Positions 29,638 through 32,708 of a stretch of 32,708 nt of DNA are shown here, one piece after another. Under the pieces are notes generated by a model. The model was not told the DNA's origin. It did no database searches and saw only the letters and a program-made list of their open reading frames with translations. The stretch lies in contig JABMOM010000022.1 in the NCBI GenBank assembly GCA_013204105.1, positions 1-32,708 of the forward strand, read 5' to 3'. Made by a program: the position numbers and the translations under genes. Each line of letters starts with the position of its first letter. The stretch's first letter is position 1. Source of the stretch: Flavobacteriales bacterium (GTDB taxonomy: Bacteria; Bacteroidota; Bacteroidia; Flavobacteriales_G; Salibacteraceae).

Positions 29638-30681
29638 ATGGCCCAAGTCCGTTGGAAGAAATATACCCTCCAATTCAAACGTCCAAGCGGCACGTCGCGC
29701 GGCGTATTGACCACCAAGGTCTCCTATTTCTTGATTTGGGAATATGATTCCTTTGCCTATCCAGCCTTGGGTGAATGCAGCCTGATCGAAGGGCTGAGTC
29801 CAGACCCAAAGGAGGGCTACGAACACACCTTGGACCTTGTTTGCCAAAACTTGCGAGAAGGCGGTAATTCTTTTCCAGACCTCAGTGCCTATCCTTCCAT
29901 TCAATTCGGACTTGAAACCTTGCTTTTAGATATTCAGGCCAAAGGCTCAAAACAACTCTTCAACAACGCTTTCTCCAAAGGGTCAAAGGGGATGCAGATC
30001 AACGGACTGATCTGGATGGGCGAACGCGCCTTCATGCGAGAACAGATCGTAGAAAAGATCCATCAAGGATTTGCCTGTGTAAAATTGAAGATCGGAGCGA
30101 CCGACTTCGAAACAGAGCTGAGCTTGCTCCGCTTCATCCGCGAAGAATTCGGTTCTGATATTGAACTCCGGGTGGATGCAAATGGCGCGTTTGCACCCGA
30201 TGAAGCCTCGGGGAAATTGCGAAAGTTAGCTGCGTATGATCTACACTCTATAGAGCAGCCTATTGCCCAGGGGCAGTGGGAAGACATGGCGCAGCTTTGC
30301 GAACAAACACCCTTGCCGATAGCACTGGATGAAGAGCTGATCGGTATATCTGAATTCGATGAAAAGAAACGTTTGATGGAGACCATAAAACCCCAGTACA
30401 TCATTCTTAAACCCTCATTACACGGAGGCATGAAAGGTTCAGATGAGTGGATCCGTCTAGCAGAGGAGCAAGGCGCCAAATGGTGGATTACCTCTGCCTT
30501 GGAAAGCAATGTAGGTCTCAACGCCATCGCGCAGTACACCTTCGAGAAGGACGTTCAGCTCCCACAAGGACTTGGCACGGGAGGATTGTACACCAACAAT
30601 TTCGATTCTCCTCTGTATCTTCAAGGCCAGATCATTCGTTTTGATCCCAACAAAAACTGGGACCTAACAGCAATCATATGA
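29638..30681 (+). CDS. menC: o-Succinylbenzoate synthase
   Basis: MenC dehydrates SHCHC to o-succinylbenzoate in menaquinone synthesis. The 347-residue product belongs to the enolase superfamily. The catalytic lysines are Lys149 and Lys151 in VKLKIGA. The magnesium ligands are Asp180 (RVDANGAF), Glu206 (SIEQPI) and Asp231 (ALDEEL). The second-face lysine is Lys258 (ILKPSLHGG). The C terminus has GLGTGGLYTNNF. A Dipeptide-epimerase relative is excluded mainly by context: menE follows with an ATGA overlap. The ATG at 29638 is preferred over a TTG three codons upstream. Confidence 0.93.
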   Translation: MAQVRWKKYTLQFKRPSGTSRGVLTTKVSYFLIWEYDSFAYPALGECSLIEGLSPDPKEGYEHTLDLVCQNLREGGNSFPDLSAYPSIQFGLETLLLDIQAKGSKQLFNNAFSKGSKGMQINGLIWMGERAFMREQIVEKIHQGFACVKLKIGATDFETELSLLRFIREEFGSDIELRVDANGAFAPDEASGKLRKLAAYDLHSIEQPIAQGQWEDMAQLCEQTPLPIALDEELIGISEFDEKKRLMETIKPQYIILKPSLHGGMKGSDEWIRLAEEQGAKWWITSALESNVGLNAIAQYTFEKDVQLPQGLGTGGLYTNNFDSPLYLQGQIIRFDPNKNWDLTAII

Positions 30682-31787
30682 TAAGCGAAACACCCGAGTG
30701 GAAAAAGTTTAAGAGTCTTTCAATTGACGGACGTAAGAGATCTCTGCATGAATGGAGAGCCTACGCGCAGCAACAGTTGCAAGAGGGCTATGGCATTGGT
30801 GAATTAGAAGATATATTGGAGTTCGTTGTCGACTGGAGTAACACGAAAGATTGGATCCAAGCGAGGACATCTGGAAGTACCGGAAGACCCAAAAACATCA
30901 AGATCAAGAAGGAACATATCCTAGCAAGCGCTAAGCGTACATTGGACTTTCTTGCCTTAAAACCTGGCGACAGCGCCCTGCTTTGCATGCCGAATCGATT
31001 CATCGGAGGCAAGATGATGATCGCCCGTTCCATCATCGGAGACCTAGACCTCCACATCGCAGACACAACAGCAATGCCCGAACTCCCTAGTGGAAAAAGC
31101 ATAGATTTCGCAGCAGTCGTGCCCATGCAGCTCTACAACATCACCGAAGATCCAGCGGCGACCGAACAGTGGAAAAAAGTAAAGAAGATCATTGTAGGAG
31201 GAGGTCAGGTAGACCCTCGTTTAGATGAAAGGGTCAGCAACTGGCCGAATGAGATTTACGAATCCTTTGGTATGACAGAGACCATTTCGCACGTAGCTCT
31301 TCGGCGCATCAATGGTAAGGAGCGGAATACGCCGTTCATGGTATTGGACGGCATCGAGATTGACACCGACGAACGGGATTGTTTGATCATAAAATCAGAC
31401 CTATTGCCTGAGAATCCATTGGTTACAAATGACATCATTCGACTGGAAAATGATCGCTCTTTCCACTGGGTAGGAAGGGCGGATAACATGATCAACAGCG
31501 GCGGCGTAAAGGTCATTCCCGAAGTCATAGAGAAGCTCGTGAAGCCGTACTTGAACACCAAGTTCTTTTTCGCAGGTCTGCGAGACGAAAAATTGGGTGA
31601 GCGTGTCGTCCTGATCATTGAAAGTCAACCCCTCAGCGAAACCGATCAAACGGAACTCATTGCTGACCTCAAGAGGGATCTGCACAAGCACGAACTCCCC
31701 AAAGAAATCCTCTACCTCGACGCCTTTGAGGAAACCGAAAACGGCAAACTAAACCGAGCCAAAACCATAAAACTACTCCCCAAATAA
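30678..31787 (+). CDS. menE: o-Succinylbenzoate-CoA ligase
   Basis: MenE adenylates o-succinylbenzoate and attaches CoenzymeA, the step after MenC in menaquinone synthesis. The 369-residue product is shorter than the usual 450-500, mainly at the N terminus, which fits the compact form I associate with Bacteroidota. AMP-binding motifs are complete: P-loop ARTSGSTGRPK near residue 62, YESFGMTETISH for A5, the A7-like VTNDIIRLE, and WVGRADNMINSGGVKV for A8. The C-terminal Lys lies in ETENGKLNRAKT (A10). It overlaps menC by ATGA. The stop is 3 bp before the left hairpin array, which may shape the 3' end of the message. Confidence 0.93.
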   Translation: MISETPEWKKFKSLSIDGRKRSLHEWRAYAQQQLQEGYGIGELEDILEFVVDWSNTKDWIQARTSGSTGRPKNIKIKKEHILASAKRTLDFLALKPGDSALLCMPNRFIGGKMMIARSIIGDLDLHIADTTAMPELPSGKSIDFAAVVPMQLYNITEDPAATEQWKKVKKIIVGGGQVDPRLDERVSNWPNEIYESFGMTETISHVALRRINGKERNTPFMVLDGIEIDTDERDCLIIKSDLLPENPLVTNDIIRLENDRSFHWVGRADNMINSGGVKVIPEVIEKLVKPYLNTKFFFAGLRDEKLGERVVLIIESQPLSETDQTELIADLKRDLHKHELPKEILYLDAFEETENGKLNRAKTIKLLPK

Positions 31788-31790
31788 AAA

Positions 31791-31980
31791 GCCCCAGAGG
31801 GGCGACACATCACCAGCCCCAGAAGGGCGACACATCACCAGCCCCAGAGGGGCGACACATCACCAGCCCCAGAGGGGCGACACATCATCAGCCCCAGAGG
31901 GGCGACACATCATCAGCCCCAGAGGGGCGACACATCATCAGCCCCAGAGGGGCGACACATCATCAGCCCCAGAGGGGCGG
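31791..31980. repeat. Left REP-like array, eight 25-bp units
   Basis: Eight units start at 31791 and every 25 bases to 31966. The unit is GCCCCAGAGGGGCGACACAT followed by CACCA (first three spacers) or CATCA (last four). Each unit forms a short hairpin (GCCCC-AGA-GGGGC). Unit 2 has one change that breaks it (AGAAGGGC). The last unit, next to the transposase gene, replaces GACACAT with GGTATAT. There are no unique spacers. Confidence 0.9.
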
Positions 31981-31984
31981 TATA

Positions 31985-32455
31985 TCAATCCGGAAGTATA
32001 TGCCAATCGAAGAGATATTTCTCCTCGTAGTTCACATCATACGTTTCCAGCAGGTCGATGTATTCCATTTTGAACGCCTTTTTCCGGTGATGCTCCTCCT
32101 GATTTTCAATGTAGGCAGCCACATTGCTCATCGCCTCCAAAGAATAAGAAAATGCTCCATATCCATTTTGCCACCCAAATTTCTTGCGACAGAATTTTTG
32201 CTCATTCATGTACTTCGATGAATTCGATTTGATCAATCGCACCAGTTCAGAAATCGATTGGTTTGGGTTGAGCCCAACCAGGATGTGACAATGGTCCGGC
32301 ATACATGATATGGCTAGCAATTTATGCCCGTAGGCTTGGATGATTCCCGTGATGTACATTTCCAACAAATCCTTAAACCTCGGTTGAACCAACGCCTCTC
32401 GATGTTTGACAGAAAAGACGAGTTGGATGGTTATTTGAGAGTAGGTATTTGCCAC
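31985..32455 (-). CDS. IS200-like Y1 transposase (RAYT type)
   Basis: A 156-residue HUH single-strand DNA nuclease of the Y1 transposase family (IS200/REP-associated). The GTG at 32455 gives the usual start, VANTYSQITIQLVFSVKHRE; a longer frame from 32542 would add 29 unrelated residues. The HUH motif is in ISCMPDHCHILVGL (His-x-His), and the catalytic Tyr is in VAAYIENQEEHHRK. The segment KKFGWQNGYGAFSYS is typical of this family in Bacteroidota. Such enzymes cut at hairpin DNA ends. No conventional IS ends or second gene (tnpB) are visible. Instead, inverted arrays of short hairpins flank the gene on both sides, which is why I prefer a REP-associated type over a complete IS. Confidence 0.9.
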   Translation of the reverse strand: MANTYSQITIQLVFSVKHREALVQPRFKDLLEMYITGIIQAYGHKLLAISCMPDHCHILVGLNPNQSISELVRLIKSNSSKYMNEQKFCRKKFGWQNGYGAFSYSLEAMSNVAAYIENQEEHHRKKAFKMEYIDLLETYDVNYEEKYLFDWHILPD

Positions 32456-32551
32456 GTATTTGACTTGATATCCATGGAAAATTACAGCCTCCGATCTTGA
32501 CCCAACTTGCGAAAATGCCTTGGTAAAATCTACATTTTGCACTTTTTTCCT

Positions 32552-32708
32552 TGTCGCCCCTTACGGGGCTTTGGGTGTGTCGCCCCTTACGGGGCTTTGG
32601 GTGTGTCGCCCCTACGGGGCTTTGGGTGTGTCGCCCCTACGGGGCTTTGGGTGTGTCGCCCCTACGGGGCTTTGGGTGTGTCGCCCCTACGGGGCTTTGG
32701 GTGTGTCG
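32552..32708. repeat. Right REP-like array, at least six units
   Basis: Units start at 32552, 32578, 32604, 32629, 32654 and 32679, and a seventh begins at 32704 and is cut by the window end. Each has TGTCGCCCC, a loop, GGGGCTTTGGGTG. The first two units have loop TTAC (26-bp period); the later four have TAC (25 bp). The array reads in the opposite direction to the left array. It lies upstream of the transposase gene and probably continues beyond the window. Confidence 0.9.

Follow-up and report, generated by a model that had tools for sequence, protein, structure and literature searches.

In IS608, ISDra2 and the RAYTs, the Y1 enzyme binds a hairpin formed on one DNA strand, and bases 5' to the foot of the hairpin help to choose the cut site (PMC8266576, in the part of the text available). 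Table 1 of Quentin et al. 2018 (PMC6006769) has a 'no' in the REP column for subclass 1.2 of the TnpA-Y1 enzymes, and the available sections describe the subclass as generally devoid of terminal IS200 structures. The automatic REP search outlined in these sections required, besides a GTAG/GTGG tag, that the basal stem be 7 to 20 long; manual inspection is mentioned for some subclasses. Because of these tag and stem criteria, short hairpins could have been missed there. REPs with a CGTC tag apparently have no dedicated transposase, according to the available excerpt of Di Nocera 2013 (PMC3733652). Among the matches listed by a full-text literature search, hairpins beside subclass 1.2 genes were not reported, as judged by titles and the beginnings of abstracts. 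Going by this search and by the available part of Quentin et al., the association described below appears to be unreported.

The window, i.e. the whole stretch of 32,708 nucleotides analysed here, contains near its end a Y1 (HUH) transposase gene enclosed by two inverted arrays of short hairpins.

Architecture of the locus

The left array (31790..31979, minus strand) is located downstream of the gene and comprises eight units at a pitch of 25 bp, as identified by tandem-repeat detection (TRF score 352), pattern search and folding. Read on the minus strand, the unit is TGTGTCGCCCC-TCT-GGGGCT followed by a spacer GATGA or GGTGA. Six of the eight units match this form exactly; the unit at 31815 has a mismatch in the stem, and the innermost one (31965) carries ATACC in place of TGTC. 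Folded as single-stranded DNA, the left array reaches a z-score of -6.97, with none of 200 shuffles as good.

The right array (32552..32708, plus strand), found by tandem-repeat detection and pattern search, is located upstream of the gene. It consists of six whole units and a cut seventh at a pitch of 25 or 26 bp, the unit being TGTGTCGCCCC-(T)TAC-GGGGCT with the spacer TTGGG. The loop is TTAC in two units and TAC in four. Five of the six units start with TGTGTC and the innermost with CCTTGTC, while only the start of the seventh is present, since it is interrupted by the end of the contig. Loop and spacer thus differ between the two arrays.

On the left the insert is bordered by a gene for an AMP-binding enzyme (30678..31787, plus strand), which we take to be menE and whose stop codon lies just outside the insert. 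No Rfam family reached the gathering score in the window or in six related loci. A CRISPR array was ruled out: the repeats are near-identical 25-mers (98-99% matches) without variable spacers. Two further short tandem repeats, with 8-bp and 7-bp units, were observed at positions 345-388 and 1085-1116 of the window.

The transposase

The core of the enzyme (31985..32455, minus strand, 156 residues) contains the motifs DHCH, WQ and YIENQEEHH, the tyrosine of the last being presumably the catalytic residue by analogy with known Y1 enzymes. The open reading frame starts at 32542, but the start position typical of the family fits a GTG codon at 32455, the probable start. The 29 additional in-frame codons at the N-terminus (32456..32542, minus strand) have an omega of 0.46, compared with 0.07 for the core, and may be untranslated. 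Judging from its coding sequence, the transposase gene is under purifying selection (omega of the core against the sister copy 0.074).

The protein matches the Pfam family Y1_Tnp with an E-value of 8.2e-27, and this is the only Y1_Tnp match in the genome of the window; the low copy number reported for subclass 1.2 is therefore seen here as well. It scores 72.5 bits with the NCBIfam IS200 model (transpos_IS200, cut-off 55) and 42.7 bits with REP_Tyr_transpos (cut-off 80). All 14 members of alignment A1 (the window and 13 relatives) match the IS200 model, and the Y, Q, H and H of Y---Q--HH are invariant in all 14 rows. The window enzyme has YIENQ, not YxxxNP. Among 128 related loci, Y---Q--HH occurs in 124, WQ in all 128 and YxxxNP in none. 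The HUH motif of the window enzyme has a cysteine in its middle position, whereas subclass 1.2 is listed with DH[IV]H; isoleucine or valine is found in 97 of the 128 relatives. Apart from this cysteine the enzyme appears, by its motifs, to carry the signature of TnpA-Y1 subclass 1.2. An AlphaFold model (mean pLDDT 85) matches the transposases of IS608 and ISDra2 with Z-scores of about 12-13 and the RAYT structure 4er8 with a Z-score of 10.5 (3.5 Å over 126 residues).

Hairpins across the family

To the 80 named loci, from Bacteroidota and a few neighbouring phyla, further loci were added from genomes of the taxonomic class of the window. After removal of L043 (no match), two duplicates and three weak rows, 129 of the 135 loci gathered remained, and 128 once the sister locus (L021) had been left out; four of these have a stop in the matched stretch. 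A first hairpin rule (stem of at least 6 bp) missed the 5-bp stems of the window and most others. It was then relaxed to a stem of at least 5 bp with a CC apex within 300 bp of the gene, with mirror-image hairpins as a control.

Such hairpins are present at 109 of the 128 loci (set A 69/79, set B 40/49), including 105 of the 124 with Y---Q--HH, and absent within 300 bp from the other 19. A plasmid relative (L216) has no hairpin within 1.5 kb, and two cyanobacterial plasmid matches (L217, L218) lack the full subclass 1.2 signature. In total 267 (A) and 187 (B) hairpins were counted against 2.5 and 1.85 expected on average from dinucleotide shuffles, an excess of about 100-fold, and against 0 (A) and 1 (B) mirror-image hairpins with a GG apex. 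Beside the gene there are about 6 CC-apex hairpins per kb, and at 900-1450 bp their number is down to 0.19 and 0.14 per kb. Around class-2 RAYTs of the same bacterial class only four such hairpins, of other kinds, were seen, at 4 of 30 loci. With class-2 RAYTs as the comparison set, the association is specific to subclass 1.2. Since most of the sampled relatives adjoin the same kind of hairpin, our data suggest that subclass 1.2, described in the available part of Quentin et al. as having no partner repeats, has repeats of its own.

Anatomy and orientation of the unit

A consensus was derived from the 208 orientable units among 528 and reads approximately CTATAAA-Y-AT(G/T)(T/C)C, followed by a stem that is mostly R-Y-Y-C-C, a loop for which TAC and TTC are the usual sequences, and, behind the stem, a T. 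The three-base orientation rule left 301 of the 528 units uncalled. Orienting the units relied on the final three bases of the block, so these positions are circular; the remaining positions are not. The units of the window lack most of the upstream block of the family and keep TGTC, a tag at the hairpin foot that differs from the GT[AG]G of class 2.

To assign orientation relative to the gene, a model was trained on the non-circular positions of other loci. For the nearest upstream unit this gave 69 minus, 16 plus and 3 uncalled, so that the block faces the gene in 69 of 88 cases; the nearest downstream unit was plus in 73, minus in 11 and uncalled in 9, the block facing the gene in 73 of 93. 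The trend is weaker for all units taken together (upstream 170 minus and 53 plus, 170/235 facing the gene; downstream 158 plus and 73 minus, 158/258).

There is a median of four hairpins per locus within 600 bp. Successive spacings peak at 48-55 bp (209 of 397), and a pitch like the 25 bp of the window is seldom seen (24-26 bp in 6 of 397). At one locus (L045, genome G003) hairpins lie about 600, 380 and 165 bp before a subclass 1.2 gene; this pitch of about 215 bp is much longer than usual.

The commonest stem is the same on both sides of the gene at 43 of 72 loci, compared with 10.2 after shuffling. On a protein tree of 121 rows without stops, which includes the window enzyme and has a stem label for 106 rows, stem type changes 39 times, compared with 68.2 times for shuffled labels (0 of 200 shuffles as low). 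Stem type follows the protein tree, an agreement to which the shared ancestry of near relatives contributes.

The insertion site

The window ends where its contig (C19) ends. The end of another contig of the same genome, C36, contains two more whole units and part of another, adjoining a gene for proline dehydrogenase, named after a Pfam match of its copy in a sister species (G009). In that species the order is proline dehydrogenase, two hairpins, transposase, two hairpins, AMP-binding enzyme; its transposase is 92% identical to that of the window. Because the sister species shows this same gene order, C19 very probably adjoins C36, with the assembly broken inside the array and the right array most likely continuing on C36.

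In a survey of 13 genomes of the genus, the AMP-binding gene was present in 12. The insert was found in two of the 13, in both cases between the two convergent genes. Six congeners (G001, G003, G005, G006, G007 and G011) have an empty junction with the aligned ends of the flanking genes about 31-63 bp apart. A looser hairpin pattern returned nothing at these six junctions, and no GCCCC-loop-GGGGC hairpin was present there. In G004, G008 and G012 proline dehydrogenase was not found within 1.5 kb; the match was partial in G002 and absent in G010. Since the unit is found in two species and is missing at the same junction in six, it probably entered in the ancestor of the two carriers, i.e. by gain rather than loss.

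The spacers of the sister species, with its 2+2 units, are nearly the same as those of the window, and the two arrays of the window keep different loops and spacers. For these reasons local tandem duplication within each array is the most likely origin of the long arrays. Such growth fits slippage or unequal exchange and would not need the enzyme.

Between window and sister species the transposase (31985..32455) has a pS of 0.24 and a dS of 0.29, far below the dS of the neighbouring genes (AMP-binding gene 1.32, proline dehydrogenase 1.10, enolase-like gene 0.84). The gene may be younger than the split of the two species, may have been exchanged by recombination, or may be constrained at silent sites.

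Dispersed hairpins

A count of the tagged pattern YCGCYCCNNNGGRGCT covered 295 genomes of the taxonomic class of the window, probably Bacteroidia to judge from the closest named relatives; 165 of the genomes contain a match to the enzyme at an E-value of 0.001 or better, some of these matches being weak. Matches beside the gene included, the pattern occurs 503 times in the 164 genomes with the gene (the genome of the window left out) and 74 times in the 130 without; the reversed pattern, used as a control, occurs 44 and 20 times, respectively. At least eight matches were found in 22 of the 164 genomes with the gene compared with one of the 130 without (Fisher test, 3e-5, an optimistic value since the genomes are related). 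At least one match is present in 37 of the 130 genomes without the gene, and five of these have four or more.

In the genome of the window, a draft of 96% completeness, all 14 matches of the tagged unit lie at the ends of C19 and C36. Beyond this locus the enzyme has left no visible trace in its own genome.

The situation is different in genome G096, a single contig, where guide plus stem occurs 17 times: four copies lie around the gene and 13 are distributed over ten further sites, while the reversed control gives 0. At several of these sites about four hairpins form a composite element with the inner guides facing outwards, and in a BLAST search parts of one site recurred at 11 places away from the gene. 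Ten of the 16 guide blocks in the retrieved stretches lie outside any open frame of 80 codons, seven of these ten away from the gene. As a whole, the four-hairpin element folds no better than shuffled sequences (z -0.81). Two congeners searched for a clean empty counterpart of a dispersed element yielded none; the sites vary between species, with no clean excision. One site measures 1.25 kb in G096 and 27 bp in G132; at another, the four-hairpin element stands against one hairpin in G053 and other sequence in G132; at a third, the gap in G132 is longer than that in G096.

The composite elements at about ten sites of G096 (L196-L206, L261) resemble elements of the REPIN/BIME type and have the guide block in common with the flanks of the gene. 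Genome G286 shows scattered single GCCCC hairpins (L207-L214), most of which have a block whose last two bases are a pyrimidine and C. Its subclass 1.2 gene is flanked mainly by ACCCC units, unlike the dispersed GCCCC hairpins.

Proposed mechanism and alternative explanations

We propose, with a probability of roughly three in four, that the locus is an inserted unit in which a Y1 endonuclease gene of subclass 1.2 is combined with the hairpins cognate to it, that the enzyme cuts and rejoins these hairpins, and that the arrays grew locally. By analogy with known Y1 systems, the enzyme would recognize, on single-stranded DNA, both the 5-bp C/G hairpin and, 5' to its foot, the block that ends in TGTC here. 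It would then cleave the DNA at the hairpins and transfer and rejoin the strand, as IS200 and RAYT enzymes do at theirs. The unit, possibly moved by its own enzyme, would have entered between two convergent genes in the ancestor of two species, and in the species of the window the arrays would have expanded from about two units per side via slippage or unequal exchange. Because the block ending in TGTC holds the place of the guide bases in the known Y1 mechanism, the enzyme is most likely a hairpin-directed cutter and joiner of single strands whose substrates flank its gene.

The insertion relative to the congeners would also suit an ordinary IS200-type insertion sequence whose end hairpins multiplied later, and so would the score above the cut-off of the IS200 model, which all A1 members match, and the nearest solved folds, which include IS608 and ISDra2. 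A synonymous divergence below that of the neighbours fits a younger, mobile piece. Yet there is one copy in the genome, and six intragenomic pairs compared in other genomes are only 40-64% identical, which is not what an IS would show. As a rule a locus has several hairpins at a pitch of about 50 bp (median four within 600 bp), and hairpins also occur away from the gene. We regard this explanation as unlikely.

We give still less weight to a canonical RAYT and REP generator that is active or recently active in the genome of the window, as the earlier note had read the locus. Much of its description stands: two inverted arrays with a pitch of the 25-bp class (eight units, and six whole and one cut) surround a Y1 transposase, and across the sampled family hairpins are tied to the enzyme, in most cases in inverted orientation with the 5' tag towards the gene. 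The tag is likewise borne out, as TGTC in the window and as a block ending in (G/T)(T/C)C in the family. These features, an intact and constrained gene and the guided hairpins dispersed in another genome (G096) are what a RAYT would show. The name does not apply in its strict sense: the motif is YxxxQ, not YxxxNP of class 2, and REP_Tyr_transpos stays at 42.7 bits, below 80, whereas the IS200 model reaches 72.5, above 55. Nor did REP-generating activity find support, since the tagged unit is found nowhere else in the 96%-complete draft. The earlier note had itself taken an absence of the repeats elsewhere in the genome as an argument against their spread by the enzyme, and 14 of 14 matches lie at the ends of C19 and C36. 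For the perfect tandem expansion it pointed out, local tandem duplication is the better explanation.

It is very improbable that the hairpins have nothing to do with the enzyme and serve the convergent flanking genes as transcription terminators or RNA-stability elements: both arrays do lie at the 3' ends of these genes, but six congeners have no GCCCC-loop-GGGGC hairpin at the same junction, the density of about 6 per kb beside the gene drops to 0.14-0.19 per kb at 900-1450 bp, the 5' block is oriented and no Rfam family matches.

Beyond the proposed reading of this locus, we lean slightly towards a broader one, in which subclass 1.2 would be a second REP system derived from the IS200-like class 1, independently of class-2 RAYTs. 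It would have a hairpin code of its own (a block of about 12 nucleotides ending in (G/T)(T/C)C, a 5-bp stem, a 3-nucleotide loop and a pitch of about 50 bp) and mobilize composite elements resembling REPINs, among them the repeats with several hairpins, roughly 130-190 bp long, that are scattered in G096.

Subclass 1.2 has so far been a transposase-like group with neither a substrate nor IS properties. Now that it has a specific, oriented hairpin partner, its activity can be put to a direct test, and together with its hairpins the subclass may stand as an intermediate between insertion sequences and the domesticated RAYTs. Matches in 165 of 295 genomes, some of them weak, provide a large set for study in which stem and protein vary together.

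Comparison with known systems

The CGTC-tagged REPs are likewise palindromes tagged by a motif ending in GTC; in the available excerpt (PMC3733652) they are described mainly from Alphaproteobacteria, and the likeness lies in that description. With IS200/IS605 elements of subclass 1.1 (IS608, ISDra2) the locus has in common the HUH/Y1 fold, the IS200 HMM, hairpins near both ends and bases 5' to the foot that could serve as a guide. These elements have small subterminal hairpins and near-identical copies (PMC6006769, available part), in contrast to the arrays and the single copy here and the diverged copies in the relatives compared.

RAYT/TnpA-REP enzymes with their REPs (the REPtron, class 2) also have 5'-tagged hairpins flanking the gene, several per side, and dispersed hairpins are likewise present in the one genome tested here. 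They differ in having YxxxNP and GT[AG]G tags, compared with YxxxQ, a tag end (G/T)(T/C)C, 5-bp stems and a pitch of about 50 bp. The window enzyme would work like a REPtron, yet by motif, tag and model score it falls outside the RAYT class.

With TnpA-Y1 subclass 1.2 itself, as described in the available part of Quentin et al. (PMC6006769), the locus has in common Y---Q--HH, WQ, a short core with a conserved C-terminal part and a low copy number. The entry there is 'REP: no', whereas here and in 109 of 128 sampled relatives the gene is flanked by short hairpins.
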